A DNA stretch of 36,239 nucleotides from the NCBI GenBank assembly GCA_947461795.1, contig CANHMG010000012.1, forward strand, positions 1 through 36,239, written 5' to 3'. Both the position numbers and the translations under genes were made by a program. The notes under the pieces were generated by a model. The model was given only the letters and a program-made list of their open reading frames with translations, was not told where the DNA came from and did not search any database. This document shows, one piece after another, positions 6,779-33,029 of the stretch; the first letter of the stretch is position 1, and each line of letters begins with the position of its first letter. The stretch comes from Flavobacteriaceae bacterium (lineage in GTDB: Bacteria > Bacteroidota > Bacteroidia > Flavobacteriales > Flavobacteriaceae).

Positions 6779-6783
6779 AGTTT

Positions 6784-8616
6784 TTAAAAATTAAAGATTA
6801 AATAAAGAGCATAATTTATTCCTGGCATCGGTCGTTGCGATACACTTTGATAGTTTTTGTTCCAAAGATTGAGTACTTGAAAACCTAATTTATAAGTGGC
6901 AACTTTTCCTAAAATGTAATTCAAATTCAAATTTGAAATTTGATATTCCTCAAGAAAATTCTTGTTATCGCTAGATGTAAAGACATATCCAGTAAACAAA
7001 TATTGGTAATTTAAAGTCATTTTCCGAAAAGAATAGGCTAAACTCGAATTGAATTTATGAAAAGGAACATAAACCAACTGTTTCTCTGTTTGATTATCTT
7101 CCGAAACAGTATATCCATAATTGGCATTGAAGTCAATCGCATGATTTTGACTTTTTTTATTCCAATTGAAAGTCAATTCCGCACCGTAAACGGATACTTT
7201 CGCTATATTATTGGGCCTCCATGTCCCACTTTGATTTGGTTTCCATTGAATTAAATTGTCAATTTTTTGATAATATATCGTTCCAGAAATTGACACATTC
7301 TTGAATTTTAAATATTGCCCAAGTTCGCCTTGATAGGAATTTTCAGGTTTTAAATTTGGATTTCCTAAACCTACCCAATATAAATCATTGAATGTAGGAA
7401 TTCGGAAATTTCGGGAGAAATTGGTAACCAAAGTATAGTGATTACTGAGTCGATGATGTGTTCCAAAAGAAAACAAAAACGGGCTATCATAAGACGATGT
7501 TATTTCCTTTCTTCCGCTCAATTCATACGAAAAGTAACGAAAAACCTCTTGTTTTAATAAAACAGTAACAACTCCAATTTCCCTTGTGTTTGTTCGTATT
7601 TGAGAGCCAATTCCTTTGGTTTGAGTAAATTCTAAAATTGTATTAAAAGTAATGGAAGGCGTAATTTCATATAGAAAATCCTGTTTCACAAGTTCAGTTT
7701 CGGTTTTGGAAGTTTCAAAATTACCCTTAAGTGCATTTTCAAAATAATTATAGTGTTCCCCCAAGAATGCAACTTTCAATTTAGAAGTTACTTTTCCTAA
7801 AAACCAATTCCATTCTATTAAATTTCGATAATTGTAATCACGATACTTACTTTTAGAAACAGCACTTAATGTTCCTGAAAAATGTCGCTCGCTTTCATAA
7901 AATTGGCTGTAGAATTTTAGTGTATGAAAGAGGTTCAGTCGATATCCTAAACTCGCATTCATACTGGTATTATAAAATTGGCCATTCTCGTTCTTTTGAT
8001 TTTTTGTACCTAAATAGTCATAATTATTGGTCGAACTATTTCTTGAAATGCTTATTTGATTGGCTACTTTTTTGTTTGAAAAGTTAATTTTGTAATTGGA
8101 CAGAAAAGTGTTAAAACTTCCATAGGATAAGAACAATTCATTTTGAAATTGATTCTTAAAAGTCAATTCATTATTCAAATGGATGCTTCCTCCAATAGCA
8201 CTACTGCCATAAATGGAACTTCCACCACCCGACCGGACCGTAATTGAAGTATAATCTCTTGTGGTTATCGTATTAAAATCAGTCTGACCATTGAGTTGTG
8301 AATTGATATTAATTCCATTCCAAATTACCGCAGTTTGTTGCGCTGTAGTGCCTCGAAAAGAAGGAGACGAAACCATACCTAAACCATTTTCTTTAAAATA
8401 AATTATTGAATTATAATTCAATAAAGAGGTTAAAGAAGCTCCGTTTTTAGCAATAATCGAATCATTCAAAACAGCAACCGATTGGGTATTGGAAAAATTT
8501 TTAAGTTGTGAATCAGAGACAAAAACTTCTTTCAAGGTCACAATAGAATCATTTTGCGCACAAACCATTTGGCACATCATCAAAATCCAAAATAAAAACA
8601 GCTTTTTCGCAGTCAT
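6784..8616 (-). CDS. TonB-dependent outer-membrane receptor, BtuB-like
   Basis: Signal peptide; plug motifs (SPSFRGTTAQQTAVIWNGININ, GSSIYGSSAIGGSIHL); barrel with terminal aromatic ALYLIFNF; preceded by a cobalamin riboswitch. Confidence 0.9.
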   Translation of the reverse strand: MTAKKLFLFWILMMCQMVCAQNDSIVTLKEVFVSDSQLKNFSNTQSVAVLNDSIIAKNGASLTSLLNYNSIIYFKENGLGMVSSPSFRGTTAQQTAVIWNGININSQLNGQTDFNTITTRDYTSITVRSGGGSSIYGSSAIGGSIHLNNELTFKNQFQNELFLSYGSFNTFLSNYKINFSNKKVANQISISRNSSTNNYDYLGTKNQKNENGQFYNTSMNASLGYRLNLFHTLKFYSQFYESERHFSGTLSAVSKSKYRDYNYRNLIEWNWFLGKVTSKLKVAFLGEHYNYFENALKGNFETSKTETELVKQDFLYEITPSITFNTILEFTQTKGIGSQIRTNTREIGVVTVLLKQEVFRYFSYELSGRKEITSSYDSPFLFSFGTHHRLSNHYTLVTNFSRNFRIPTFNDLYWVGLGNPNLKPENSYQGELGQYLKFKNVSISGTIYYQKIDNLIQWKPNQSGTWRPNNIAKVSVYGAELTFNWNKKSQNHAIDFNANYGYTVSEDNQTEKQLVYVPFHKFNSSLAYSFRKMTLNYQYLFTGYVFTSSDNKNFLEEYQISNLNLNYILGKVATYKLGFQVLNLWNKNYQSVSQRPMPGINYALYLIFNF

Positions 8617-8660
8617 AATTTCAGAATCTTTTTCCCGAAGATTCGATATTCGTTACAAAA

Positions 8661-8830
8661 AAAGGCAGGTCTCCTGGCTTGCGTCTTGTTGTTTCCCTTC
8701 CCATTCAAATGAACAGTGGTCTTGTAGTTAACAACAAGCTTTCTAGCTTACAGTTGCGGGAACAGCTTAGGTTTTGAACCTAATTCCCTTTTAATGTGAT
8801 TGAATAAAATTTCAAATCACAACCTTAATT
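8661..8830 (-). ncRNA. Cobalamin (B12) riboswitch, 5' leader of the TonB receptor operon
   Basis: Minus-strand sequence AAAAGGGAATTAGGTTCAAAACCTAAGCTGTTCCCGCAACTGTAAGC...AAGACCACTG...GGGAAGGGAAACAACAAGACGCAAGCCAGGAGACCTGCC matches the conserved cobalamin riboswitch core (B12 box GCCAGGAGACCTGCC and CCCGCAACTGTAAG). Ends are approximate. Confidence 0.93.
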
Positions 8831-8836
8831 CGAGGG

Positions 8837-8844
8837 CAAAGATA
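8837..8844 (-). promoter_or_regulatory. Candidate -7 element (TATCTTTG) for the riboswitch/btuB-like transcript
   Basis: Minus-strand TATCTTTG immediately upstream of the riboswitch; fits TAnnTTTG. Confidence 0.5.
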
Positions 8845-8872
8845 ACCTTATCTGGATGAATTAAAAATTAAA

Positions 8873-8905
8873 TTTGAAATTTAAATTGGATTACAACTAC
8901 CTTTG
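8873..8905 (+). promoter_or_regulatory. Candidate promoter of the btuF-like operon
   Basis: TTTG (8873-8876), 21-bp spacer, TACCTTTG (8898-8905); ATG at 8927. Confidence 0.6.
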
Positions 8906-8926
8906 TCCCGCTTGAAAAATCATCCT

Positions 8927-10069
8927 ATGAAAACAGTTTTCCTGAAATTCTCTTTACTTTTAGTGATGGTACTTGCTGTTGGATGTAAACCAAATACGGC
9001 AAATAAAAATTCAAGTTTTTCAAATGCTAGCAATCAAATAAAATACGCAAAAGGGTTAGCTATCTATAAATACAATGGTTTTTCAATTTTAAAAATTAAA
9101 GATCCTTGGCCCAATGCAGCTAAAGAATACACCTATATTCTTCAAGAAAAAAACGGAATTATTCCTGATAGTTTACAACAAAATCCTATCATTCCGATTC
9201 CACTCAAAACAATCGTAGCCACCTCAACAACTCACATTCCGTCTTTAGAAATGTTGGGTGTCGAAAATACGCTTGTTGGTTTTCCAAATACAGCTTATAT
9301 TTCTTCTGAAAAAATGAGACGCCGAATTGATTTAGGGAATATTCGCGATGTAGGGAACGACCAAAGTTTCAACACAGAACTTTTAATTGAATTAGCTCCA
9401 GCTGCTATAATCGGTCAAGGAATTGACAATAACAATCCGGCTTTAGACAATTTGCAAAAAAGCGGTTTAAAAGTTATCTTCAATGGCGATTGGAACGAAT
9501 CTTCTCCATTAGGAAAAGCAGAATGGATAAAGTTCTTTGGTGCACTTTACGGTTTAGAATCAAAAGCAAACTTTCTCTTTAATTCGATTGAAACTGACTA
9601 TTTAAAAACGGTAGCATTAGCTCAAAAAACCACTGCAAAACCGACTGTTTTTTCGGGAGCTGTTTTTGAAAATCAATGGTATATGCCTCAAGGAAATAGT
9701 TGGGGTGCACTTTTTATAAAAGAAGCAAACGCGAACTATTTGTGGAGTGAAACCAAAGGAACAGGAAGCTTATCCTTGTCCATTGAATCTGTTTTGGTAA
9801 AAGCACAAAATGCCGATTTCTGGATTGGACCTGGACAATTTACTTCTTTGAAAGAAATGACAGCTGCCAATCCACATTACGCTCAATTTAAAGCATTTCA
9901 AACAAAAAATGTATATTCGTATAGTACAAAAAAAGGAAAAACAGGCGGGCTTATTTATTATGAATTAGCTCCTAATCGACCTGATTTAGTATTAAAAGAC
10001 ATGATTAAAATTTTACATCCCGAAGTACTTCCCAATTACAAATTATACTTCTTTGAAAAATTACAATAA
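8927..10069 (+). CDS. btuF: ABC transporter substrate-binding lipoprotein, BtuF/FecB-like
   Basis: Start corrected to ATG at 8927 (MKTVFLKFSLLLVMVLAVGCKPN, lipobox); ORF-track TTG start at 8903 lies inside the -7 element. Periplasmic-binding fold motifs (IVATSTTHIPSLEMLG, ELLIELAPAAIIG). Confidence 0.8.
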   Translation: MKTVFLKFSLLLVMVLAVGCKPNTANKNSSFSNASNQIKYAKGLAIYKYNGFSILKIKDPWPNAAKEYTYILQEKNGIIPDSLQQNPIIPIPLKTIVATSTTHIPSLEMLGVENTLVGFPNTAYISSEKMRRRIDLGNIRDVGNDQSFNTELLIELAPAAIIGQGIDNNNPALDNLQKSGLKVIFNGDWNESSPLGKAEWIKFFGALYGLESKANFLFNSIETDYLKTVALAQKTTAKPTVFSGAVFENQWYMPQGNSWGALFIKEANANYLWSETKGTGSLSLSIESVLVKAQNADFWIGPGQFTSLKEMTAANPHYAQFKAFQTKNVYSYSTKKGKTGGLIYYELAPNRPDLVLKDMIKILHPEVLPNYKLYFFEKLQ

Positions 10070-11101
10070 ATGCAAAAGAATTCAAAACATAGGTTTCTTT
10101 ACATATTGCTATTTATAGTGACCATTTTTCTATTTGTTTTAGACCTCAGCTTTGGTTCGATTACAATTCCATTTAAAGAAATTTTGAACACCTTAACAGG
10201 CGGAACAGCTACGAAAAGTACTTGGGAGTATATCATTCTCAATTACCGTTTACCAAAAGCTATTACGGCTATTTTAGTCGGAATGGGATTGTCAATTAGT
10301 GGGTTGTTAATGCAAACTCTATTTAGAAATCCATTGGCCGGCCCATATGTTTTAGGGTTGAGTTCGGGTTCGAGTTTGGGTGTTGCCCTAGTCATTTTAG
10401 GAGCCCGATTTATGCCTCCATATTGGAACGATTTATTCGTGTCATCTTACGGAATTATTATCGCATCCTGTTTGGGAAGTGCTTTAGTTTTGCTCTCGGT
10501 TTTGTTTGTTTCTCAACGATTGCGCGATACTATGGTCATCTTAATTGTTGGGTTGATGTTTGGTAGTTTTACCAACGCTTTTGTAGGGGTACTTTCGTAT
10601 TTTAGTTCAGCGGAACAATTACAAAAATTTACTTTTTGGTCGTTAGGAAATTTAGGGAATTTATCGTGGAATTCCATCCTAATTCTAACAAGTTCAGTGG
10701 CTATTGGTTTGTTATTGAGTTTCATTAGCATCAAACCTTTGAATACACTATTACTAGGAGAGAATTACGCGAAAAGTCTCGGTATGAATTATAAAAAATC
10801 AAGACTGATTATAATTCTGGCGACCAGTATTTTAGCAGGAAGTATCACTGCATTTGCAGGCCCCATTGCCTTTATTGGATTAGCAGTTCCACATATTGCC
10901 AAATTGATCTTTCAAACCAGTAATCACGACACTTTGTTTTGGAGCACCTTGCTTTTAGGATCGAGTTTGATGTTGTTTTGTGATCTTATTTCACAAGTTC
11001 CTGGCGGTGATTTTACCTTGCCAATTAATGCGATTACTTCTATTATAGGAGCTCCAATCGTAGTTTGGTTGTTGGTTCGCAAACGTAAAATGATGCACTA
11101 A
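10070..11101 (+). CDS. btuC: FecCD-family ABC transporter permease, BtuC-like
   Basis: Polytopic; family motifs RLPKAITAILVGMGLSISGLLMQTLFRNPLAGPYVLGLSSGSSLGVAL and GPIAFIGLAVPHIAKL. Confidence 0.9.
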   Translation: MQKNSKHRFLYILLFIVTIFLFVLDLSFGSITIPFKEILNTLTGGTATKSTWEYIILNYRLPKAITAILVGMGLSISGLLMQTLFRNPLAGPYVLGLSSGSSLGVALVILGARFMPPYWNDLFVSSYGIIIASCLGSALVLLSVLFVSQRLRDTMVILIVGLMFGSFTNAFVGVLSYFSSAEQLQKFTFWSLGNLGNLSWNSILILTSSVAIGLLLSFISIKPLNTLLLGENYAKSLGMNYKKSRLIIILATSILAGSITAFAGPIAFIGLAVPHIAKLIFQTSNHDTLFWSTLLLGSSLMLFCDLISQVPGGDFTLPINAITSIIGAPIVVWLLVRKRKMMH

Positions 11102-11886
11102 TGGAAAATAAAATCGTACTCCACACTGAAAACCTAAGCATAGGATATTCCCATCAAAAGGAAAAAAATTGTATTGCTTCTTCCATACATTTAACTTTAG
11201 AAAAAGGAAAATTAATTGCGCTTGTGGGGGCCAATGGAATTGGGAAATCCACCTTGATTCGAACACTTACAGGCATACAAAAACCACTTTTGGGTGAGGT
11301 TTTTTTACATTCCAAAAGAATAAGTCATTACGAACCATTGACGTTAGCCAAAGAAATGAGTTTAGTATTAACCGAAAAATTGCCTCCGAGTAATCTTACG
11401 GTTTATGAATTGATTGCTTTAGGAAGACAACCGTATACAAATTGGATTGGAAAATTATCTCCCGACGATTTAGAAAAAATTGAAAGCGCCATTGCAATCA
11501 CACAAATTCAACATTTGATTTCCAAAAAGCATTACGAAATAAGTGATGGACAATTGCAAATAGTCCTTATTGCAAGAGCATTAGCACAAGATACGGCTTT
11601 GATTGTTTTGGATGAACCGACAACCCATTTAGATTTGGTGCACAAAGTGTCGCTATTCAAACTGCTAAAAAAACTCACTCAAGAAACGGAAAAATGCATC
11701 TTATTTTCGACACATGATATTGATATGGCGATTCAATTGAGTGATGAAATGATAGTGATGACTTCTGATAATTGTATACAAGGTCAACCGTGTCAGTTGA
11801 TTTCAAAAGGAGTTTTTGAATCCTTATTTCAGGACGAACACATTGCATTTGATTCCCAGAAAGGAACATTTATCATCAAAAATTAA
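11101..11886 (+). CDS. btuD: ABC transporter ATP-binding protein, BtuD/FecE-like
   Basis: Walker A GANGIGKST, signature ISDGQLQIVLIARAL, Walker B LIVLDEPTTHLD; start overlaps the permease stop. Confidence 0.88.
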   Translation: MENKIVLHTENLSIGYSHQKEKNCIASSIHLTLEKGKLIALVGANGIGKSTLIRTLTGIQKPLLGEVFLHSKRISHYEPLTLAKEMSLVLTEKLPPSNLTVYELIALGRQPYTNWIGKLSPDDLEKIESAIAITQIQHLISKKHYEISDGQLQIVLIARALAQDTALIVLDEPTTHLDLVHKVSLFKLLKKLTQETEKCILFSTHDIDMAIQLSDEMIVMTSDNCIQGQPCQLISKGVFESLFQDEHIAFDSQKGTFIIKN

Positions 11887-16368: not shown

Positions 16369-17499
16369 ATGAAACGAATTTATTTTTTACTAATTAGTGT
16401 ATTAATTTTAACGCTATTTGTTATTTCTTGTTCATTAAATAATGATGAAGAATATATAGATATTAAGGAATCAAATAGAACAAGCAACCCAATATCTGGC
16501 CCAGTTAGATTTGATTTTACACAAGTTCCTTTAGCCAAACTTTCCGATTATCATTTTTTTATTGGTCCTTTAAAAAACCAAACTCCAGGCTATAAGGTTG
16601 TGCCTTATTCACCAGCAAGTACTCTTTTTACAGATTATGCTTCCAAAAAAAGATTTATTTGGATGCCACCCAATGTAAAAGCCACCTACACTGCAGACAA
16701 TAAAATATTGAATTTTCCAGTGGGAACAGTTTTATTAAAAACTTTTTATTACACAACGATTCAACCTAATAATACTACTAAAATCATTGAAACTCGAGTA
16801 ATGATTTTGAAATCTGATGGTTGGAAATTTTATGAATATATATGGAATGAGGATCAAACAGAAGCTTTTTTAGTTTCGGGTCCTGATTTTGCAAATGGAA
16901 GTAGTGTGACTATTACGTTTAGAAAACCAAATAATGAAATCATTACTACGGATTATAGAATTCCTTCCGATGCAGAATGTTTTGCCTGTCACAAACTAAA
17001 CGAACAAGCTACGCCAATTGGTGTAAAACCACAAAACTTAAATGTTGATTACTTGTATCCAAGAGGAAACAGAAACCAATTACTGTATCTTTTACAACAA
17101 GGGTATTTAGCAAGCTACCCTTCGAATATTGTTACAACTGTTGATTATCATGACACCACAAAATCTCTAGACTTGAGGGCTCGTTCCTATTTAGATATTA
17201 ATTGTGCCCATTGTCATCAAGATCATGCCCGTTGTGATTATCGTGCTTTACGATTTGCTTTTAGCGAAACTACAAACCCAACCAATCTTGGTATTTGTGT
17301 TATCGCTGCAGAGGAAATAAGTCCAATTTTACAAAAACTAATTACGCCTGGAAATTTTGATAAATCTATCGTTCATTATAGAGTTAGCTCAAACGATGAA
17401 AGCGAAAGGATGCCATTGCTTGGAAGAACAATAGTGCATGATGAAGGAATCAATCTTTTAGAACAATGGATATTATCTTTAACACAAACGTGTGATTAA
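16369..17499 (+). CDS. Diheme c-type cytochrome lipoprotein (SO_2930-like family)
   Basis: Lipobox LFVISCSLNN; two CXXCH motifs (AECFACHKL, NCAHCHQD); 'YASKKRFIWMPP' and 'TFYY' segments shared with the paralogue at 22441. Confidence 0.82.
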   Translation: MKRIYFLLISVLILTLFVISCSLNNDEEYIDIKESNRTSNPISGPVRFDFTQVPLAKLSDYHFFIGPLKNQTPGYKVVPYSPASTLFTDYASKKRFIWMPPNVKATYTADNKILNFPVGTVLLKTFYYTTIQPNNTTKIIETRVMILKSDGWKFYEYIWNEDQTEAFLVSGPDFANGSSVTITFRKPNNEIITTDYRIPSDAECFACHKLNEQATPIGVKPQNLNVDYLYPRGNRNQLLYLLQQGYLASYPSNIVTTVDYHDTTKSLDLRARSYLDINCAHCHQDHARCDYRALRFAFSETTNPTNLGICVIAAEEISPILQKLITPGNFDKSIVHYRVSSNDESERMPLLGRTIVHDEGINLLEQWILSLTQTCD

Positions 17500-17541
17500 T
17501 TGTTATTAAACAAAAATTAAAAAACCCTAATACAAATACTA

Positions 17542-19587
17542 ATGAAAAAATCTTTACCTTTTATTTTTACATTCTTTTGTTTTGCTTTATCTTTTGCGCA
17601 AGAACATTGTGATAGTGCATTAACTGTTGCTCTTGGATCTACTACAACAGCTCCAGCTTTCACGAATGAAATAGGAGAAATACCTACACAGCTTTGTGGA
17701 TTAACAAATCAAAACGGTATTCCGGCAACTAAAGGAAAATGGTATACGTTTACTGCTACAGAAAACAATACAGTCACTGTTACAACATTTTTACCACAAA
17801 ACAATAATTCAGACACTCGTTTTATTGTATATTCAGGAAGCTGTACAAGTTTGACATGTGTTGGATCTAACGATGATTATAACGGTACAAATTCTTCGCA
17901 ACTTACATTTGCTATTACAACAGGAACAGTATATACTATTGCTTTCGACAATAGATACAGTTCTGCTGGGTTTGATTTTAGAATAACCATTGCTCCACCA
18001 CCAGCACCAGATAGATTGTCATTCACTTCTACACCCGTTGCAGGAATAGCTGGAGGTTATAATAATTGTATTGCAGATATGAATGGTGATTACAGAGATG
18101 ATATTGTTTCTGCTATTAATACAACGCAACTAGCTATTTCATACCAACAAGTAGGTGGAGGATTTACAACTTCTACTTATGCACTTTCTAATACCTCTGT
18201 TTTGCCTTCTTGGAGTATTGCTGCTGGTGATTATGATAATAACGGATATAATGACTTAATCTTTGGTTCAGGAAGTGGCATTGTTTTTTTGAAATCCAAT
18301 TCAGATGGAACAGCATATACTACTGATAGAAAAACTCAAAGTTATTTAGTACAACGGACTAATTTTGTAGATATAAACAATGATGGAAAATTAGATGCTT
18401 TTGCTTGTGATGATAATGCACCCAATAGACGCTACATGAATGATGGTGTAAATATGAATCACATTCAAGGTGGTATTGGTGATTTTGCAAGTGGAGGAAA
18501 TTATGCTTCTTTATGGAGTGATTTTGATAATGATGGAGATATTGATATGCACTTGTCTAAATGTGGCCAAGGTGGATCTGGTGTAGGAGGAAACATTAAC
18601 CAGATGTTCAATAACAATGGAGATGGAACCTATACAAATATTGCCGCAGCCGCTAATATGGCAGATGCGGAACAAACATGGTCTTCAGCAGTTGGTGATT
18701 TTAATAATGATGGTTGGATGGATGTAATTGTGGGTGTAAATTCACTATCAGACGGAAATACGAACGTAAAAAGAAATAATGGAGACGGAACATTTACAAG
18801 TATTACAGTAGGTTCAGGATACGATACAATTTTCACTACAGGTAGAGAATATGTTGCACATGATTTTGATAACGATGGGTTTTTAGATGTTTTAAATTCT
18901 GGAAGTACTATCATGTTTGGAGACGGAAATTTTCATTTCACACCAAATCCAAATACGTATCCTTTATCTTCGGTTGACAGACCTGTTGGGGATTTAAATA
19001 ATGATGGATTTTTAGACATTCAAAACGGGAATAATGTATTGTTTAATAATGGTAACATAAATCATTGGATAAAAATAAATTTACAAGGAATTCAAAGTAA
19101 CCGAAATGGAATTGGTGCTAGAATAGAATTGTATGGTGCTTGGGGAAAACAAATTAGAGATGTTCAAAGTGGTACTGGTTTTCAAAACATGAGTAGTATT
19201 AACGCACATTTTGGTATTGGTTTAGAAACTCAAATAACAAAAGTAGTAGTAAAATGGCCTTCTGGAACTGTTGATACAATTAACAATCCATCTTCTGATC
19301 AATCTTTATATGTACTTGAAGGTTCAACTGCTTTAGCAAATACAAATTTTAATAATTCCGAATTCAGTTTGTATCCAATTCCAACTAAGAATATATTAAA
19401 CATTAAAACTAATAATTCTTTTATAATACAAACAGCACAAGTATATGAATTAACTGGAAAATTAGTATTAAATTCTGAGGTTATTAATGCAACTATAAAT
19501 GTAGAGTTCTTAACAAAAGGAACATACATACTTAAAGTAACAGATTCAAAAGGAAAAGTGTATTCTCAAAAATTTAATAAAGAGTAA
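17542..19587 (+). CDS. Secreted FG-GAP/VCBS repeat protein with ASPIC/UnbV domain and T9SS sorting domain
   Basis: Signal peptide ending FAQ; DFDNDGDIDM/DFNNDGWMDV-type FG-GAP loops; NGIGARIELYGAWGKQIRDVQSGTGFQNMSSINAHFGIG...VVVKWPSG (ASPIC/UnbV); C-terminal YPIPTKN...GTYILKVTDSKGKVYSQKFNKE. Confidence 0.88.
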   Translation: MKKSLPFIFTFFCFALSFAQEHCDSALTVALGSTTTAPAFTNEIGEIPTQLCGLTNQNGIPATKGKWYTFTATENNTVTVTTFLPQNNNSDTRFIVYSGSCTSLTCVGSNDDYNGTNSSQLTFAITTGTVYTIAFDNRYSSAGFDFRITIAPPPAPDRLSFTSTPVAGIAGGYNNCIADMNGDYRDDIVSAINTTQLAISYQQVGGGFTTSTYALSNTSVLPSWSIAAGDYDNNGYNDLIFGSGSGIVFLKSNSDGTAYTTDRKTQSYLVQRTNFVDINNDGKLDAFACDDNAPNRRYMNDGVNMNHIQGGIGDFASGGNYASLWSDFDNDGDIDMHLSKCGQGGSGVGGNINQMFNNNGDGTYTNIAAAANMADAEQTWSSAVGDFNNDGWMDVIVGVNSLSDGNTNVKRNNGDGTFTSITVGSGYDTIFTTGREYVAHDFDNDGFLDVLNSGSTIMFGDGNFHFTPNPNTYPLSSVDRPVGDLNNDGFLDIQNGNNVLFNNGNINHWIKINLQGIQSNRNGIGARIELYGAWGKQIRDVQSGTGFQNMSSINAHFGIGLETQITKVVVKWPSGTVDTINNPSSDQSLYVLEGSTALANTNFNNSEFSLYPIPTKNILNIKTNNSFIIQTAQVYELTGKLVLNSEVINATINVEFLTKGTYILKVTDSKGKVYSQKFNKE

Positions 19588-19818
19588 TAAGATAAGTTGA
19601 ATGTTCTAAATATAAAAAAATAGAATAGTCAATTTATAAATGACAATTAAAATTAAAAGCATTCTTTCAATACTTTAATTTGAAAATTAAAGAAGGGTGT
19701 TTTTAATTTTAGTTGTCTTATTTAATTATAACAAATACGCTTTACAAGAAATTATTTAGCTTTTATTCTAGAATTATTAAGTTAGATAAAATGAATATTA
19801 ATCAAAAAACCAAAAAAA

Positions 19819-22296
19819 ATGAGAAGTCAATTTCACCAATTAAAAATTAATTTTTATCAAAAAATCGCATTACTATTATTTTGTTTGGGATTTCAATTAT
19901 CTAATGCTCAAAGCACTTGTTCTACTGCATTGCCTATTACAGCAGGTACAACTACTGTAGCGGCGATTACTGGAACAAACTTATCTTCTACATGTTCTAC
20001 GGCAGGTTTAGCAGAATGGTATTCCTATACACCTACTCAAAACTATAGTATTACTATAACTTCTGATATACTTATAAATATATGTAAGGATACTAATTTT
20101 AATGTATATACTGGATTGTGTGGTAGTTTAATATGTTATGCTGGAGATGATGATTCGGGCATAATAGCTTGTAATTCAGGTTCTGCAACTACCTATCTTT
20201 CTGTTGATACATTTGATGTAATTGCAGGTAATACGTATTATATTGCTTGGGATAATCGATGGAGTGCAGATGGGTTTGATTTTCAATTGATAGAAGCTCC
20301 TTTTGTACCAAATCTTTGTTCAACTGCAATGCCAATTACAACAGGAATAACTACTGTAAATGCTATAGACGGTGATAATATGGCAACTACATGTTCAACG
20401 ACAACTTTGGCTAAATGGTACGCATATACTCCAACTCAAAATGCTCACACAACAATTACATCTGATTTAAGTACTAACCTTTGTAAAGACACAAATTTTA
20501 GTGTTTATAGAGGTTCATGTACTGGTACATTTACCTGTGTTACTAGTGATGACAATTCTGGAATTTTAGCCTGTAATTCTGGAAATACAAATTCATTTTT
20601 ATCTAAAGCAACATTCGATGTATCAGCAGGGACAACCTATTATATCGTTTGGGATAACAAATGGAGTACAGATGGTTTTGATTTTGAAATAACTGAAGCG
20701 CCAATTATAGTTCCAATTAATTATACTAGTCAAACAATTAGTACTATAACAAGTAACTATAATATTTGTTTAGTAGACATGAATGGAGACCATTTAGATG
20801 ATGTTGTTGGAGTTTCAACAAACAATCTAAAAGTGCATTATCAAGGCACTGGTGGTGCTTTTACTGTTGCCAATTTTTCAGTTCCAGGAACGAGTTTTAT
20901 GCCATCATGGAGTTTAGCTGCTGGAGATTTAAACAAAGATGGGTATAATGATTTAATGTTAGGTGGTGGCAGCGGAGCTTCTTTTTGGACCTCTAATAAT
21001 ACAGGCACAGCCTACACAAGCTATACTCCAGGAGAATATATCTTTTGTCAAAGAACTAACTTTATTGACATCAATAATGATGGTAATTTAGATGCTTTTT
21101 CTTGCCATGATGTTGATCCAAACGTATATTATTTAAATGATGCTTTAGGCAATTTAACCTATTATCAATCTGGAACAACTCCAGGTGCGTATATGTTAGG
21201 AATTACTGCTAGTGGTGGTAATTATGCTTCCTTATGGACCGATTATGACAATGATGGCGATAGAGATATGTTTATTTCAAAATGTTCTGGACCTCCAAGT
21301 GAATTGCATAGAAACGATGGGAATGGTGTATTTACTGATATCTCAGCAATAGCTCAAATTAATGTTCAACCTATTCAATCATGGTCTTCTGCAATAGCGG
21401 ATTTTGATAATGATGGGGATATGGATATTATGATTGGTTCGAATGGAAGTGTTGGGAATAAATTTTTTAAAAACAACCTTGATATAACGAATTCAGTTGA
21501 AGAAGCTTTTACAGAAATCACAATAGGTTCTGGTTTAGATACCAATACGAATCCAAACAGAGATTATATTGCTTATGATTTTGATAACGATGGTTTTGTA
21601 GATATTCTAGGGGGTGGTAGCAAAATCATGTTCAATCAAGGAGACAATACATTTACTCCTATTGTTTATCCAAACGTTACAGTTGGAGCTGTAGGAGATT
21701 TAAATAATGATGGTTTTCTTGACTTTTTAAATGGAAGTACAATTAATTATGCTATTCCAAATCAAAACAATTGGTTTACTTTAGAATTGCAAGGAATTGA
21801 AAGTAATAGTAATGGAATTGGAGCTAGAATTGAATTGTATGGCCCATGGGGGAAACAAATTAGAGACATCAGAAGTGGTGAAGGATTTGAATATATGAGT
21901 TCATTGAACGCTCATTTCGGAATTGGATTAGCCAATACAATTGAAAAAGTTGTAATCAAATGGCCGTCAGGATTAGAAGATACAGTTCTAAATCCAGCTA
22001 TTAATCAATCTTTAAGAGTTACCGAAGGAGCCACCTTAGCTGTAAACAACTATACAAATTCTGAGTTTAGTATTTATCCTATTCCATCCAAACAATTTCT
22101 AAATATTAATATCAAATCAAATTCTACTCAGAATTTCAAATCAGCTCAAATTTTTGATTTAAACGGAAAATTAATTTTAGAATCTCTAGTAACTCCTTTA
22201 AAATTAAATATTGAATCAATCCAAAGTGGAACCTACCTTTTGTTATTAAAGAACGAAAATGGTAAAGGGTTTTCACAAAAATTTATTAAAGAATAA
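19819..22296 (+). CDS. Secreted FG-GAP/ASPIC-UnbV protein with duplicated N-terminal domain and T9SS sorting domain
   Basis: Two N-terminal repeats (CSTALPITAGTTTVAAI..., CSTAMPITTGITTVNAI...); FG-GAP loops; ASPIC/UnbV segment; C-terminus SGTYLLLLKNENGKGFSQKFIKE. Confidence 0.88.
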   Translation: MRSQFHQLKINFYQKIALLLFCLGFQLSNAQSTCSTALPITAGTTTVAAITGTNLSSTCSTAGLAEWYSYTPTQNYSITITSDILINICKDTNFNVYTGLCGSLICYAGDDDSGIIACNSGSATTYLSVDTFDVIAGNTYYIAWDNRWSADGFDFQLIEAPFVPNLCSTAMPITTGITTVNAIDGDNMATTCSTTTLAKWYAYTPTQNAHTTITSDLSTNLCKDTNFSVYRGSCTGTFTCVTSDDNSGILACNSGNTNSFLSKATFDVSAGTTYYIVWDNKWSTDGFDFEITEAPIIVPINYTSQTISTITSNYNICLVDMNGDHLDDVVGVSTNNLKVHYQGTGGAFTVANFSVPGTSFMPSWSLAAGDLNKDGYNDLMLGGGSGASFWTSNNTGTAYTSYTPGEYIFCQRTNFIDINNDGNLDAFSCHDVDPNVYYLNDALGNLTYYQSGTTPGAYMLGITASGGNYASLWTDYDNDGDRDMFISKCSGPPSELHRNDGNGVFTDISAIAQINVQPIQSWSSAIADFDNDGDMDIMIGSNGSVGNKFFKNNLDITNSVEEAFTEITIGSGLDTNTNPNRDYIAYDFDNDGFVDILGGGSKIMFNQGDNTFTPIVYPNVTVGAVGDLNNDGFLDFLNGSTINYAIPNQNNWFTLELQGIESNSNGIGARIELYGPWGKQIRDIRSGEGFEYMSSLNAHFGIGLANTIEKVVIKWPSGLEDTVLNPAINQSLRVTEGATLAVNNYTNSEFSIYPIPSKQFLNINIKSNSTQNFKSAQIFDLNGKLILESLVTPLKLNIESIQSGTYLLLLKNENGKGFSQKFIKE

Positions 22297-22318
22297 ACAC
22301 TAAATTATATTTAAAAAG

Positions 22319-22358
22319 TATCGATTTTACATTTTCTTTTTTCTAAATGAAATCGATA
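22319..22358 (+). terminator. Probable intrinsic terminator
   Basis: TATCGATTT...AAATCGATA stem followed by T-rich tract. Confidence 0.55.
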
Positions 22359-22440
22359 TTTTTTTAATAATATTGAACAAGAGCACTTTACTGTTTTATA
22401 TATATAAATTCATTACATTTGATTTGCTATAAAATTTTCT

Positions 22441-23610
22441 ATGAAAAAACTCTACTTTTTATTATTATTTGTTGCTTTTTTAGCCTTCGGAATACATTCC
22501 TGTTCACTAAATAGTAATGAGGATTATATTCCATTAAATGAAGATTCTAATAAAAATGGAGGTGTCATTTCGGGTCCTATTACACTCGATTTATCTCAAG
22601 TCCCATTTCCTAAACTTTCTGACTATCATTTTTTTGTTGGTGAATTAAAAAATCAAAAACCAGGTTACAAGGTTTTACCATTTGAACCTGCAAGTTCTTT
22701 ATTTACAGATTACGCTCACAAGAAACGATTTGTATGGATGCCAAAAGGAACGAAAGCAACCTTCAATGGGGATTCAAAAGTATTAGAATTACCTATAGGA
22801 GCTGTTTTAATTAAAACTTTTTATTATACTAATGTACAGCCATTGAACACTACTCGAATCATCGAAACCCGTTTAATGATTCGAAAAGCTTCAGGTTGGA
22901 TATTTGCTGATTATGTATGGAATGATGAACAAACGGAAGCTTTTTATAGTCTTCAAGGTAGTTTTACTCCTATAACTTGGAAAGATGAAAACGATGTCAT
23001 AAAAAGTACTGAATATAGAATTCCTGCCGAAGCTCAATGCATTATTTGCCATAAAAAGAAAATACTTGTGAACGAAGTAGAACAAACTATCTTTTTACCT
23101 ATTGGAATAAAACCACAAAGCTTAAACTGGAATTATAATTACGGTACAAATACTAGAAACCAATTAACCAAATGGATTGAGCAAGGTTATTTATTGAATA
23201 ATTTTAGTTATCCAACTGTAACTAATACTGCTGTAAATTATAATGACACTTCAAAACCTATTGAACTGAGAGCTCGCTCGTATGTAGATATTAATTGTGC
23301 TCATTGTCATCAAAATGATAGACATTGTGACTACAGACCTATGCGTTTTGCATTTAATGAAACAGGTCTTGATAACGGACTAGGGAATACTAATTTGGGA
23401 GTTTGTGTAAACACAGAAGACATGCAAGATTTTCCAACCGAATTAAATACAATTGTAAAACCAGGAAGCATCGAAAGATCTATGATGTATTATAGGTTAA
23501 ATACAACTAACGAAGCCTACAGAATGCCTCTACATGGCAGAACAATAATTCATGAAGAAGGAATTGCACTCATAGAACAATGGATTAATTCTTTGCATGA
23601 TTGTCCTTAA
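22441..23610 (+). CDS. Diheme c-type cytochrome lipoprotein (SO_2930-like family), paralogue of 16369-17499
   Basis: Lipobox FGIHSCSLNS; CXXCH motifs CIICH and CAHCH; shared YAHKKRFVWMPKGTKATF, RMPLHGRTIIHEEGI. Confidence 0.82.
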   Translation: MKKLYFLLLFVAFLAFGIHSCSLNSNEDYIPLNEDSNKNGGVISGPITLDLSQVPFPKLSDYHFFVGELKNQKPGYKVLPFEPASSLFTDYAHKKRFVWMPKGTKATFNGDSKVLELPIGAVLIKTFYYTNVQPLNTTRIIETRLMIRKASGWIFADYVWNDEQTEAFYSLQGSFTPITWKDENDVIKSTEYRIPAEAQCIICHKKKILVNEVEQTIFLPIGIKPQSLNWNYNYGTNTRNQLTKWIEQGYLLNNFSYPTVTNTAVNYNDTSKPIELRARSYVDINCAHCHQNDRHCDYRPMRFAFNETGLDNGLGNTNLGVCVNTEDMQDFPTELNTIVKPGSIERSMMYYRLNTTNEAYRMPLHGRTIIHEEGIALIEQWINSLHDCP

Positions 23611-23632
23611 AACTAATTAAAACTAAATACCA

Positions 23633-26092
23633 ATGAAAAAATTTACATTACTTTTTGTTTTGCTATTTTTAGCGCAACATTCCAAAGCACAAGATACGTG
23701 TGCTACTGCAATACCTTTAACAGGTTTTGGTTATTATGTGGTGGATGCTATTAATGGATCTCAAGTTCCTACTCCACTTTGTGATACTCAATATGGAGCA
23801 GTTCCTGCAACTCGTCCTCCTGGTGGAGAATGGTATGTATATACACCAACACAAGATTATTCTGTAAAAGTCACTACTGATCTTGCAGTAAACACACCTC
23901 TTATCGACACCCGTTTTCATGTTTATACAGGAAGTTGTGACAATTTGATTTGTTATGAAGGAGATGATGATAGTGGTTCTGGTAACTCATCAACAAGTGT
24001 TTTTAATGTAATAGCTAATACTACCTATTATATCGCTTTTGATAATCGATGGACTTCATTAGGATTTACTTTTCAACTTACTGAAGATGTATTTGTTCCT
24101 AATCCTTGTAGTTCTGCAACTCCAATAACCGCTGGAGTGACAACTGTAAATGCTATCGATGAAACCAACATTCTTACAACATGTTCTAATGAAACAATGG
24201 CAAAATGGTATTCTTATACACCAACTAGTAATTATGAAGTAACTTTATCTTCTGATTTGGTACAAAATACTTGTTTAAACACCGATTTTAATGTCTATTC
24301 AGGAACATGTGCTAATTTAGCTTGTTATGCATCTGACGATGATTCTGGTGTGATAACTTGTAGCACTGACAATTCGTCTTCGTTACTTTCTAAAAAAACA
24401 TTTACTGTTGCAGCTGGAGTTACTTATTATATCTCATGGAATAATCATTATTCTGCTGTCGGTTTTGATTTTGAATTAACAGAAACACCTATTATTATTC
24501 CAATACAATATAATATACAATCAATTTCGACTGTCAATAGTACCTACAACATTTGTGTTGTTGACATGAATGGTGATAGTTTAGATGATATTGTAGGTGT
24601 TAGCGCTAATAATTTAAAAATAAATTATCAGCAACCAGGTGGAACATTTACAAATTCCAATTTTACAGTTTCTGGAACAAGTTTTCTACCATCATGGAGT
24701 ATGGCAGCTGGAGATTATAACAGAGACGGTTATAATGATTTAGTATTAGGTAGCGGAAGTGGCCTTTCTGTATGGACAGCTCAAGATTCTGGAAGTGGCT
24801 ATACTGCGTATACACCTGGTGAATATATTTTCTGTCAAAGAACCAATTTTGCCGACTTAAATAACGATGGAAATCTAGATGTTTTCTCTTGTCATGATAT
24901 TGCTCCAAATGCCTATTATCTAAATGACAATGCAGGTAATTTAACTTATTACCAATCAACTGTTACAGCTGGAGCAATGAGTATAGGGGCAGTTGGAGGT
25001 AATTATTCAACATTATTTACCGACTTCGACAATGATGGAGATACTGACGTGTTTATCTCTAAATGTTCTGGACCACCATGTGAATTGCATAGAAATGATG
25101 GAAATGGGGTGTATACAGATATTTCTGCATTGGCTCAGATAAATGTTACTCCAATCCAAACTTGGTCATCTGGTATCGCTGATTTTGATAATGATGGCGA
25201 TATGGATATTATAATTACTTCTAGTGGTAGTTTACATAAATTTTTTAGAAACAATTTAGATACTACTAATGCTGTAGAAGAAGCCTATACAAATATCACT
25301 GCTGGTTCAGGTTGGGATACCAATACATCTACCAACATTGATAATGTTTCGTATGATTTTGATAATGATGGACTTGTAGATGTATTAGGTGGTGGTGGAA
25401 AAATCATGTTCAATAAAGGTAATAATTATTTTGCTCCAACAGCTTATCCTGCAACTGGTGGCTTTAATGCAATTAGTGTAGGTGCCGTAGGAGATTTAAA
25501 TAACGATGGATTTCTTGACATTTTAAATGGTAGTGCAGTTCGATATGCTATTCCAAATGGAAACAATTGGTTTAAAGTTCTTTTACAAGGAATTCAAAGT
25601 AATACGAATGGAATTGGAACTAGATTAGAAATTTATGGTGATTTTGGAATACAAATAAGAGATATAAGAAGTGGTGAAGGATTTAAATATATGAGCTCCT
25701 TAAATGGTCATTTCGGACTTGGTCAATATACTTCTATAAATAAATTAGTGGTTAAATGGCCTTCTGGAATTGTGGATACTTATTTAAATCCGGAAATAAA
25801 TGCAGCTTTTAGAGTAACTGAAGGTGCTACTTTAGCTGTAAATGGAAATACTAAATCTGTTTTTAGTATTTATCCTAACCCTGCCAATCAATATCTTAAT
25901 ATTAATTTAGATCCAAGCTCAAAAGAAAAATTAGTTGCTGCTCAAATATTTGATTTAAACGGAAGATTAGTTCAAGAATCTCAATTAACTTCATTAAAAT
26001 TAAATATTGAATCTATTCAAAGTGGAACTTATCTTCTCTTATTGAAAAATGAAAATGGGAAAGGATTTTCTCAAAAATTCATTAAAGAATAA
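23633..26092 (+). CDS. Secreted FG-GAP/ASPIC-UnbV protein with duplicated N-terminal domain and T9SS sorting domain
   Basis: Signal peptide ending SKAQ; FG-GAP loops (DFDNDGDTDV, DFDNDGDMDI); NGIGTRLEIYGDFGIQIRDIRSGEGFKYMSSLNGHFGLG...VVKWPSG; T9SS C-terminus. Confidence 0.88.
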   Translation: MKKFTLLFVLLFLAQHSKAQDTCATAIPLTGFGYYVVDAINGSQVPTPLCDTQYGAVPATRPPGGEWYVYTPTQDYSVKVTTDLAVNTPLIDTRFHVYTGSCDNLICYEGDDDSGSGNSSTSVFNVIANTTYYIAFDNRWTSLGFTFQLTEDVFVPNPCSSATPITAGVTTVNAIDETNILTTCSNETMAKWYSYTPTSNYEVTLSSDLVQNTCLNTDFNVYSGTCANLACYASDDDSGVITCSTDNSSSLLSKKTFTVAAGVTYYISWNNHYSAVGFDFELTETPIIIPIQYNIQSISTVNSTYNICVVDMNGDSLDDIVGVSANNLKINYQQPGGTFTNSNFTVSGTSFLPSWSMAAGDYNRDGYNDLVLGSGSGLSVWTAQDSGSGYTAYTPGEYIFCQRTNFADLNNDGNLDVFSCHDIAPNAYYLNDNAGNLTYYQSTVTAGAMSIGAVGGNYSTLFTDFDNDGDTDVFISKCSGPPCELHRNDGNGVYTDISALAQINVTPIQTWSSGIADFDNDGDMDIIITSSGSLHKFFRNNLDTTNAVEEAYTNITAGSGWDTNTSTNIDNVSYDFDNDGLVDVLGGGGKIMFNKGNNYFAPTAYPATGGFNAISVGAVGDLNNDGFLDILNGSAVRYAIPNGNNWFKVLLQGIQSNTNGIGTRLEIYGDFGIQIRDIRSGEGFKYMSSLNGHFGLGQYTSINKLVVKWPSGIVDTYLNPEINAAFRVTEGATLAVNGNTKSVFSIYPNPANQYLNINLDPSSKEKLVAAQIFDLNGRLVQESQLTSLKLNIESIQSGTYLLLLKNENGKGFSQKFIKE

Positions 26093-26145: not shown

Positions 26146-26188
26146 ACATCGATTTGATACTATTTTTTTGATAGTTTCAAATCGATGT
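26146..26188 (+). terminator. Strong intrinsic terminator
   Basis: ACATCGATTTGA.ACTAT-loop-ATAGT.TCAAATCGATGT then TTTTATTTT. Confidence 0.75.
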
Positions 26189-26393
26189 TTTATTTTATCT
26201 TCTTTTGGTATTGATTGTTATTCTTTATAAAGAAAAGAAAATAATGTTTCTATATTCAATGAAAACAATAAAGAAAAGTGAATTTATTAAACCTAAGTGA
26301 ATCATTAAATATCGTTCTAGTCTTTTACTTTTGAAAGAGGAAAAAGGTAACTACCTTTCACAAAAATTAAAAAAATAAATACAATTCAAGCAA

Positions 26394-26430: not shown

Positions 26431-27270
26431 TTAAAAAACTCGAAGTAGATTGAATCCGAAGAATATTTGGCCTTTATTCCAATCTCCGTTTGTATTACCA
26501 AGAAATCCTGCTTCATGTATTCCTTGTGAGTTCGATAAATGCATTTGAAAAACATGCCCACCTGTTTCTAAATCAACTCCAATTGACAATGGATCTACAA
26601 AAGTAGAAGTTGCTGTTCTATTCAAATGAGTAGCATAATCAACATTGACAGACAATCTGTTAGTCAGTTTAAACCTTCCTCCCATGCCAATGGCGTATTG
26701 CGAATTGTCTTGCAAATCATTCGCAACAAAATTTTCATGAAAATACGTTGGAGCCAATTCTAAGGATAATCTTTTTGAGATTTTGCTAGAAATTAAAAGT
26801 TGGGAAACATAAATCATTCTATCTGCAAATTTCATTTTTGGATAATTATTTTCCTTCAATAGATTATTAAAAGCTAAACTATTAAAACCAACAATAGTGA
26901 ATGGAAAACCATCTTTTGTTTGTTCTTGAAATCTATATTTTGCAGAAAAATCAAATGCTTGTTCACTTCTAGCACCACTTATCGTAAGCCATTTTCTAAA
27001 CCCATATAAAAATTTTATTTGAGTAACTGCATTATCTAAACCCCAAAATCCTTCAGATCCGTCTTTAATAGAACCAAATCTATGAGCGATAATCAAATAC
27101 ATATCACCTTTTGCAGCTAATTTGGTAGACTCTAAGTTTACAATTTTGAGTGCCTTAAAGGCTGATTCTACAGGTTGATTTTTAGGAACACTATCCATTC
27201 CCGCTAATAAATCATCTTGAGCAAATGTAAAAAGGGGTAATAAAATTAGAAGTGAGAAAAATTTTTTCAT
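26431..27270 (-). CDS. DUF5777-like outer-membrane beta-barrel protein
   Basis: Signal peptide MKKFFSLLILLPLFTFAQ; IAHRFGSIKDGSEGFWGLDNA, alternating barrel-like strands, terminal aromatic. Confidence 0.75.
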   Translation of the reverse strand: MKKFFSLLILLPLFTFAQDDLLAGMDSVPKNQPVESAFKALKIVNLESTKLAAKGDMYLIIAHRFGSIKDGSEGFWGLDNAVTQIKFLYGFRKWLTISGARSEQAFDFSAKYRFQEQTKDGFPFTIVGFNSLAFNNLLKENNYPKMKFADRMIYVSQLLISSKISKRLSLELAPTYFHENFVANDLQDNSQYAIGMGGRFKLTNRLSVNVDYATHLNRTATSTFVDPLSIGVDLETGGHVFQMHLSNSQGIHEAGFLGNTNGDWNKGQIFFGFNLLRVF

Positions 27271-27314
27271 TATGAAATGGTTATTGCTATTTAAATTATT
27301 TTTTTAAAACGAAA

Positions 27315-27707
27315 CTATTCAGATATTGAAGCTTGGTCGATTTTTAACTCTTCCAACAAATCATCATACCCTAAAAAACGACCTTTTATTTTTATTGCTT
27401 TTTGAATTACTATGCCATTTAGAAGTGAATCTTTAAAAACCGCAGATAGTTTTTCATCCAAAACAACGGTATGACTTGTTAAATCAATATTGGTAATGAT
27501 TCCAGAAACTTCAATAGTTTTGTCCAAATATTTAGTATTAGAAGCTACGGCATCCGATGCAAACTGACGCTGCAATTCTTTTACAGTTACAGAATACTTG
27601 GCGTCTTCATTTGCTATATCACGATGCTCTTGATACATGTAAAAATACATTCCAATTCCAAAAGCTACCAATAACAAAATACTACCTATTATTAATTTCT
27701 TTTTCAT
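27315..27707 (-). CDS. Membrane-anchored OB-fold (tRNA_anti-like) protein
   Basis: N-terminal TM (IIGSILLLVAFGIGMYFYMY) plus OB-fold-like strand pattern (KTIEVSGIITNIDLTSHTVVLDEKLSAVF). Confidence 0.55.
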   Translation of the reverse strand: MKKKLIIGSILLLVAFGIGMYFYMYQEHRDIANEDAKYSVTVKELQRQFASDAVASNTKYLDKTIEVSGIITNIDLTSHTVVLDEKLSAVFKDSLLNGIVIQKAIKIKGRFLGYDDLLEELKIDQASISE

Positions 27708-27790
27708 ATTAAATCTTTTTTACAAATCTAATTTTTAATTTTAAAAATAACTTTTTTTATAGCTAAAAATATTTATTTTTGAATAAAAAT

Positions 27791-28159
27791 ATGAAAATGA
27801 ATTCATACAAATTACTTTTCCTTTTTGGAATTACTATACTATCAAGTTGCTCCAACAATAGCACATCAGACCTTATCGAACCCATTCCATTTGTAGAAAA
27901 TGTTACGTATTTAGATAACATAAAACCTATTATCGAATCCAATTGTCTTTCGTGCCATAGTTCACCTCCACAAAATTATGCTCCTATGCAACTTACAACA
28001 TACAATGATGTAAAATTGGCAGTACAAAACAGAGGTTTAATTGGTCGTATTACTCGAGATGAAGGAGCATCAGGATTAATGCCTAATGGCGGCCCTAAAT
28101 TACTTCAATCTAAAATAGATTTAATTATTAAATGGAGAGATCAAGGTTTTCAAGAATAA
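27791..28159 (+). CDS. Small c-type cytochrome-like lipoprotein
   Basis: Lipobox ILSSCSN and one heme-binding CXXCH (NCLSCHSS); start corrected from TTG 27779 to ATG 27791. Confidence 0.78.
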   Translation: MKMNSYKLLFLFGITILSSCSNNSTSDLIEPIPFVENVTYLDNIKPIIESNCLSCHSSPPQNYAPMQLTTYNDVKLAVQNRGLIGRITRDEGASGLMPNGGPKLLQSKIDLIIKWRDQGFQE

Positions 28160-28171
28160 ACAATACTAATC

Positions 28172-28711
28172 ATGAAAAAAATATTTTTACTACTAGCCTT
28201 ATTCCTACTATCAGTAGGTCACGCTCAAGATAAAATGATTACCAAAACCGGGAAAATCACTTTTGAAGCTTCAGTACCTGCATTTGAAGAAGTAAAAGGA
28301 AAAAACGAAGGCGTAACTTGTGTATTAAATCCAAAGACTGGTGAAATTGCTAGCTTGGCTTTGATGAAAGGATTTCGTTTTAAATTGGCTTTAATGGAAG
28401 AACATTTCAACGAAAATTACATCAATAGCGATACTTATCCAAAAGCTACTTTCAAAGGAAAAATTGAAAATTTTGATGCTACTGCTTTAACGACAACTGC
28501 CAAAGATTACACCATTAAAGGAAAGTTAGAACTTCATGGAAAAACGAACGAAGTTACTTCTATTGCTAAAATTAGAAAAACAGAGGGTGGGATTGAAATA
28601 ATGACCAACTTTAGTGTCAATTCTGAAGATTACGCCATTGCAATTCCTGCTGTCGTAAAGAGCAAAGTCTCCAATAAAGTAAAAGTAAAAGCTGAATTTA
28701 TTGTAAAATAA
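28172..28711 (+). CDS. YceI family periplasmic protein
   Basis: Signal peptide ending GHAQ; TKTGKITFEASVP, NSDTYPKATFKGKI, KGKLELHGKTNEVT typical of YceI. Confidence 0.87.
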   Translation: MKKIFLLLALFLLSVGHAQDKMITKTGKITFEASVPAFEEVKGKNEGVTCVLNPKTGEIASLALMKGFRFKLALMEEHFNENYINSDTYPKATFKGKIENFDATALTTTAKDYTIKGKLELHGKTNEVTSIAKIRKTEGGIEIMTNFSVNSEDYAIAIPAVVKSKVSNKVKVKAEFIVK

Positions 28712-32858: not shown

Positions 32859-33029
32859 TTGTAGTTAGTTGTTTTTTAGTTTGTAAGACTGCCAGATTTT
32901 AAGACTGTAAGATCGTTGTTGTGTGTTGGATGCACTAGCCCCGATAGAGCCGATATCCTTTGTGAGGCACGAACAAAGATAAAGGCGAAAGCGGGAAACG
33001 GCTCCTAAAAAATTTAATGACAAGATATA

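Follow-up and report, generated by a model that had tools for sequence, protein, structure and literature searches.

Paired genes for diheme cytochromes and CRTAC1-like propellers in Flavobacteriales: a putative surface redox unit

Genes and features of the locus

The stretch analyzed here (the window, 36,239 nucleotides) lies on contig C12 of a 2.35 Mb draft genome in 129 contigs (G000), whose nearest named relatives are Flavobacterium and Flavobacteriaceae metagenome-assembled genomes. At 16369-26092 it carries five plus-strand genes, in the order cytochrome-1, ASPIC-1, ASPIC-2, cytochrome-2, ASPIC-3, encoding diheme cytochrome lipoproteins and FG-GAP/ASPIC-UnbV propeller proteins predicted to be exported by the type IX secretion system (T9SS). 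On the reading favored below, a conserved surface redox unit of two genes would be present here twice, together with a third, additional propeller. All three UnbV_ASPIC genes of the assembly and two of its three TIGR03806 genes are found at these positions, so the grouping is not a matter of chance. The features of the locus are as follows.

16369..17499, plus strand: cytochrome-1, diheme c-type cytochrome lipoprotein of the SO2930/TIGR03806 family (376 amino acids; TIGR03806 E 5.8e-83; AlphaFold2 model)
16978-16992 and 17203-17217, plus strand: CXXCH motifs of cytochrome-1 (motif scan)
Within 16369..17499, plus strand: lipid cysteine of cytochrome-1, Cys21, then SLNNDEEY
17542..19587, plus strand: ASPIC-1, signal peptide, one N-terminal unit of ~150 amino acids, FG-GAP propeller, UnbV_ASPIC and T9SS sorting tail (681 amino acids; Pfam FG-GAP_3, UnbV_ASPIC, Por_Secre_tail)
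19642..19718, plus strand: long hairpin after ASPIC-1, possible terminator (RNA fold of 19588-19720: -42.3 kcal/mol, z -9.0)
19819..22296, plus strand: ASPIC-2, architecture of ASPIC-1 but with two N-terminal units (825 amino acids)
22315..22365, plus strand: hairpin and T run after ASPIC-2, terminator-like (-12 kcal/mol, z -4.3)
22441..23610, plus strand: cytochrome-2, diheme lipoprotein of the SO2930/TIGR03806 family (389 amino acids; TIGR03806 E 2.2e-80)
23038-23052 and 23296-23310, plus strand: CXXCH motifs of cytochrome-2 (motif scan)
Within 22441..23610, plus strand: lipid cysteine of cytochrome-2, Cys21, then SLNSNEDY
23633..26092, plus strand: ASPIC-3, two N-terminal units, FG-GAP propeller, UnbV_ASPIC and T9SS sorting tail (819 amino acids)
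26146..26190, plus strand: hairpin and T run after ASPIC-3, terminator-like (-21.7 kcal/mol, z -8.4)

An earlier note, made from the DNA letters without database searches, had placed the five open reading frames at these positions, on this strand and in this order, with gaps of 42 and 22 bp between each cytochrome and the next gene, and this anatomy was borne out. The same is true of the protein features it listed: an N-terminal lipobox cysteine and exactly two CXXCH motifs in each cytochrome, and a signal peptide, FG-GAP repeats with Ca-type loops, UnbV_ASPIC and a T9SS tail in all three partners. That account lacked the N-terminal unit of ~150 residues, of which ASPIC-1 has a single copy and ASPIC-2 and ASPIC-3 have two each. 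The latter two are near-paralogues (67% identity), and ASPIC-2 has no cytochrome of its own. Since an RNA hairpin lies 3′ of each ASPIC gene, the transcription units are likely cyt1-ASPIC1, ASPIC2, and cyt2-ASPIC3. The hairpin after ASPIC-1 is a very stable long inverted repeat present in single copy; a second full copy was not found in G000. A sigma-70 promoter scan gave no excess over shuffles, and TAnnTTTG boxes showed no window-wide enrichment.

In ASPIC-1, -2, and -3, the FG-GAP_3, UnbV_ASPIC, and Por_Secre_tail domains all score above the Pfam cut-offs, and each protein has six DxNxDGxxD-type loops. TIGR04183 and PF18962 above cut-off, together with the N-terminal signal peptide, identify all three as T9SS substrates, and the combination of an FG-GAP propeller with UnbV_ASPIC above cut-off places them in the CRTAC1/ASPIC-UnbV family. 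The top Foldseek match of the propeller is CRTAC1 (PDB 9etn, E 5.3e-22), followed by N-acetylglucosamine (GlcNAc)-binding lectins; these are the nearest solved structures, and there is a likeness to integrin too. No recognized redox cofactor site was found in the propeller. Neither this nor the nature of its nearest structures lends support to the electron exchange between cytochrome and propeller, in either direction, that the earlier note had proposed. The N-terminal modules of partner propellers vary among loci (MAM, fn3, or none). Two cysteines of ASPIC-1 (17542-19587), Cys289 and Cys341, are invariant in 34/34 aligned partner propellers, and possibly form a disulfide.

Both cytochromes align end to end with TIGR03806 but score 279 and 270 bits against a curated cut-off of 313.3, and by this measure they appear to be divergent relatives of SO2930/TIGR03806, not curated members. 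The two CXXCH haem motifs are conserved across the whole alignment (A5). The AlphaFold2 model of cytochrome-1 is confident, with a predicted local distance difference test (pLDDT) score of 92.0 and a predicted template modeling (pTM) score of 0.85.

Pairing, co-inheritance and fusions across genomes

Conservation of the cytochrome-ASPIC neighborhood was surveyed in 201 genomes from 200 Flavobacteriaceae genera, and the DNA around 60 cytochrome loci was read. TIGR03806 matches were classed by their score against the window cytochromes, whose own class is termed class B. PF07593 alone is present in 157/201 genomes, mostly in proteins of ~1100 amino acids, and is thus uninformative as a survey probe; the full-length partner was used instead. 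Propeller relatives of ~540 amino acids occupy a separate conserved neighborhood without any cytochrome (L209-L211, L217-L219).

A class-B cytochrome was found in 38 of the 201 genomes, representing 38 genera, and 43 of 44 readable copies are followed by an ASPIC propeller on the same strand, at a median gap of 16 bp. The lone exception is the third copy of the window genome (L079). G015 brings the cytochrome genomes to 39, with a pair truncated where its contig ends (L215). The propeller partner is present in all 39 cytochrome genomes, and elsewhere a strong partner match occurs only in G067; the co-presence has a Fisher p of ~6e-41. This value presumes independence of the genomes, which does not hold, but the pattern is extreme. 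At 80 further named GTDB loci, including those of Flavobacterium, Chryseobacterium, Epilithonimonas, Fluviicola, and Lacinutrix, 85/92 cytochromes are paired, the remainder being contig ends or cyt-cyt-ASPIC runs. Across 396 Bacteroidota genomes, scores in the class-B range (446 bits or more) occur in 14, of which 13 are Flavobacteriales. The pairing in Flavobacteriales is therefore near-obligate. The neighborhood survey proposed in the earlier note thus favors pairing, and strong support for the note's view that the repeating unit is cytochrome plus ASPIC comes from this adjacency, from the recurrence of tandem arrays and from the co-segregation of paralogues described next.

Cytochrome and propeller distances are correlated (r 0.75 over 125 pairs), a value to which relatedness alone contributes. 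At tandem loci with two pairs each, the matching of cytochromes agrees with that of propellers in 31/31 informative comparisons. These co-segregating paralogous pairs include those of L096, despite its reversed physical order. The tree separates cytochrome-1 from cytochrome-2 as paralogues of long standing: L094, L095, and L096 hold distinct orthologues of each. Comparative genomics thus supports a cognate, co-inherited pair. The pair is found in at least 13 context groups without any shared flanking gene. Beside the module, at 26431-28711, the window encodes a DUF5777 barrel, a tRNA_anti-like protein, a monohaem lipoprotein cytochrome (CXXCH at 27944-27958), and a YceI-like protein. Downstream of the pair, a gene occupies the DUF5777 position in 19 Flavobacterium loci.

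Related cytochromes also occur fused to propellers. At L041, in G067, a related cytochrome, PKD and FG-GAP are encoded in a single open frame that the end of the contig truncates, and its FG-GAP part scores 106 bits against the partner hidden Markov model. In the tree this cytochrome belongs to a fusion clade and not to class B. A second fusion of this kind was not found in 298 further genomes of the order, so that L041 stands as one case. The same clade contains fusions of a glucose/sorbosone dehydrogenase (GSDH) propeller, an SO2930 cytochrome and a T9SS tail (L038, L174, L178, L220, L221), which are candidates for secreted sugar dehydrogenases of the quinoprotein type that contain their own diheme acceptor. 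Taken together, the FG-GAP and GSDH fusions show the cytochrome family joined to different kinds of secreted beta-propeller.

Partner swap, surface placement and possible roles

Beyond Flavobacteriales, genes of this cytochrome family in Bacteroidota adjoin a TIGR03805-type beta-helix gene and usually lie downstream of it. No match to this beta-helix partner was found among the scanned window proteins, where the neighbor is UnbV_ASPIC instead. ASPIC-partnered cytochromes form a single clade (Shimodaira-Hasegawa-like approximate likelihood ratio test, SH-aLRT, 99) and beta-helix-partnered ones fall outside it. The cytochrome-ASPIC pair is therefore a variant of the SO2930/beta-helix pair, in which one clade has swapped partners and a T9SS propeller stands in place of the beta-helix. 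A net acidic stretch (≥2) after the lipobox is found in at least 95/139 ASPIC-partnered cytochromes, a lower bound because the detector at times took an earlier Cys, vs. 1/19 beta-helix-partnered ones. The stretch resembles the lipoprotein export signal (LES) of Flavobacterium johnsoniae, SDDFE (PMC5080379). The partner swap coincides with a signal predicting surface export, and both proteins are predicted to reside at the cell surface. Long class-B cytochromes have an N-terminal extension, an extracellular-type Big_9 Ig domain; no convincing match was found for a domain common to this extension and the ASPIC N-terminus.

We marginally favor the view that the pair is a conserved surface redox unit derived from the SO2930/beta-helix pair by partner swap. 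The beta-helix would have been replaced by a T9SS propeller as the pair relocated outside the cell. The diheme lipoprotein cytochrome is predicted to be directed to the outer face of the outer membrane by the acidic stretch after its lipid Cys. The propeller is strongly predicted to exit through the T9SS, its C-terminal tail anchoring or releasing it. The two would then act as a cognate pair, as comparative genomics, and not the complex model described below, suggests. The Ca2+-stabilized, CRTAC1-like propeller, with its variable N-terminal modules, may bind a polymer or other extracellular ligand and position it at the cytochrome. There, the N-terminal P460-like haem domain would carry out redox chemistry or accept electrons, and the C-terminal class-I-like haem would relay them. 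We infer from this that the two jointly perform redox chemistry outside the cell, in which binding falls to the propeller.

Several observations weigh against this reading. In an AlphaFold2 model of the in-frame read-through of cytochrome-1 and ASPIC-1 (38 paired rows), each part is well folded, but the pTM of 0.57 gives no confident fixed arrangement of the two. A rigid cytochrome-propeller complex was rejected on this basis, a transient one being compatible with the model. Structure prediction of the pair, which the earlier note had put forward as a check, thus indicated no fixed arrangement: of the cell-surface redox complex it envisaged, the surface placement is favored by the T9SS tails and the LES-like stretch, but the complex is not. 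In the two window cytochromes the acidic run is displaced to about +6 to +8 after the lipid Cys, so that the export signal is weaker there than in most relatives. The subfamily of the partner propellers is also found without any cytochrome (L209-L213, L216-L219), and in G067, which also encodes the fusion at L041, the usual locus retains the propeller but has no cytochrome (L214). Conversely, the third SO2930 cytochrome of the window genome (L079; contig C32, 5505-6608) has no propeller and adjoins methylmalonyl-CoA mutase; it groups with L204 and L172 (SH-aLRT 99), and no member of this subclade showed an ASPIC neighbor, L172 being cut by a contig end. The common neighbors of the pair are housekeeping genes, and no gene for an electron donor or acceptor accompanies it in the loci read. 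The DUF5777 barrel/monohaem cytochrome/YceI group was rejected as part of the unit, its co-occurrence by genome (24/38 vs. 74/163, p 0.07) not being significant. Lastly, a Foldseek search of the cytochrome model against the PDB gave no match below E 0.001, P460 structures included.

The P460 likeness is central to one alternative, in which the cytochrome is itself catalytic: a P460/c′-beta-type haem 1 would react with nitric oxide, hydroxylamine or peroxide, haem 2 would act as relay, and the propeller would only anchor or place it. The N-terminal haem domain matches P460 with an hhalign probability of 93%, shares with P460 proteins the colinear motifs FPxGTVLIK (FPxGxxxxK), MIKK, GW, and CXXCH, and gives weak, below-cut-off Pfam P460 matches in 19/68 cytochrome members (best E 1.4e-4). 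In other phyla, CRTAC1-family genes flank hydrazine-synthase-like multihaem genes (PMC12758564). However, the hhalign probability falls to 53% once CXXCH is masked, which also counts against the haem domain proposed above, the PDB search retrieved no P460 structure, and the GSDH-fused relatives of the cytochrome domain seem to be simple electron acceptors. A distant P460 likeness has moderate support from these comparisons and is treated here as a lead; a catalytic cytochrome of this kind seems somewhat unlikely. An elaborated form, a surface haem enzyme with a P460/c′-beta-type catalytic haem and a relay haem, to which a T9SS propeller would present ligands, we hold to be unlikely; it would let flavobacteria perform redox chemistry beyond the outer membrane with no need of multihaem conduits.

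Two further explanations dispense with joint action. The pair may be an adhesion unit: a secreted propeller serving as lectin or matrix protein, and a cytochrome that independently moves respiratory or detoxifying electrons, the two being co-regulated and non-interacting. The resemblance of the propeller to CRTAC1, integrin and GlcNAc lectins would fit, as would the variable N-terminal modules, the propellers without cytochromes and the pTM of the pair model. The near-obligate adjacency, the paralogue inheritance and the cytochrome-FG-GAP fusion argue the other way, and make independent roles distinctly improbable. Conserved synteny could also hold the pair together by hitchhiking, as many loci share a tdk-alr-mscL-asd or RmuC neighborhood; with 13 unlinked contexts, and with tandem pairs co-segregating in L096 against their physical order, this was rejected as having very little probability.

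Other window features, significance and known systems

Elsewhere in the window, a cobalamin riboswitch (8647-8842, minus strand) lies upstream of a TonB-dependent receptor gene. Genes for this receptor, DUF5074, BtuF-like, FecCD and ATP-binding cassette (ABC) ATPase proteins at 5687-11886 are probably a vitamin B12 uptake locus. A Flavo-1 RNA (32933-33002, plus strand; 43.7 bits, gathering score 42) lies near the carbamoyl-phosphate synthase gene.

The pair has a wide distribution among Flavobacteriales and is found in commonly cultured genera such as Flavobacterium and Chryseobacterium. It would connect T9SS secretion to surface redox chemistry, would suggest a role for one clade of bacterial CRTAC1-like proteins, and would offer a tractable model of a redox pair moving outside the cell through a change of partner and export signal. 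Literature searches on SO2930, HNE_0200 or ASPIC with cytochrome found no paper on the cytochrome-ASPIC pairing in the collection searched.

The closest known system is the TIGR03805/TIGR03806 (SO2930/beta-helix) pair, documented in the NCBIfam model descriptions. Both have the same cytochrome family, a two-gene pairing and exported proteins. In the window, however, the partner is a T9SS-exported, CRTAC1-like propeller encoded downstream of the cytochrome, and the cytochromes form their own clade, with sub-cut-off TIGR03806 scores and an acidic, surface-export-like signal. The partners share the FG-GAP propeller and ASPIC/UnbV segment of the CRTAC1 family, murine CRTAC1 (9etn) being the best PDB match in both sequence and fold. 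They differ in their T9SS tail, N-terminal adhesion-type units and near-obligate cytochrome neighbor; animal CRTAC1 is not known to have a cytochrome partner.

A CRTAC1-type protein is also reported to be paired with haem proteins in hydrazine-synthase-like clusters, which consist of alpha, the CRTAC1 protein and beta-gamma (PMC12758564). As in the window, a CRTAC1-family propeller gene lies beside a c-type haem protein gene, but the locus has no beta-gamma gene, and homology of its cytochromes to hydrazine synthase (HZS_alpha) was rejected, as searches of Pfam and of PDB sequences and folds gave no match. The GSDH-SO2930-T9SS fusions differ from the window pair in their propeller, a glucose/sorbosone dehydrogenase with a presumed quinone in contrast to FG-GAP without known cofactor, and in their cytochromes, which form a separate clade; they resemble it in joining a beta-propeller to the same cytochrome family for secretion through the T9SS.

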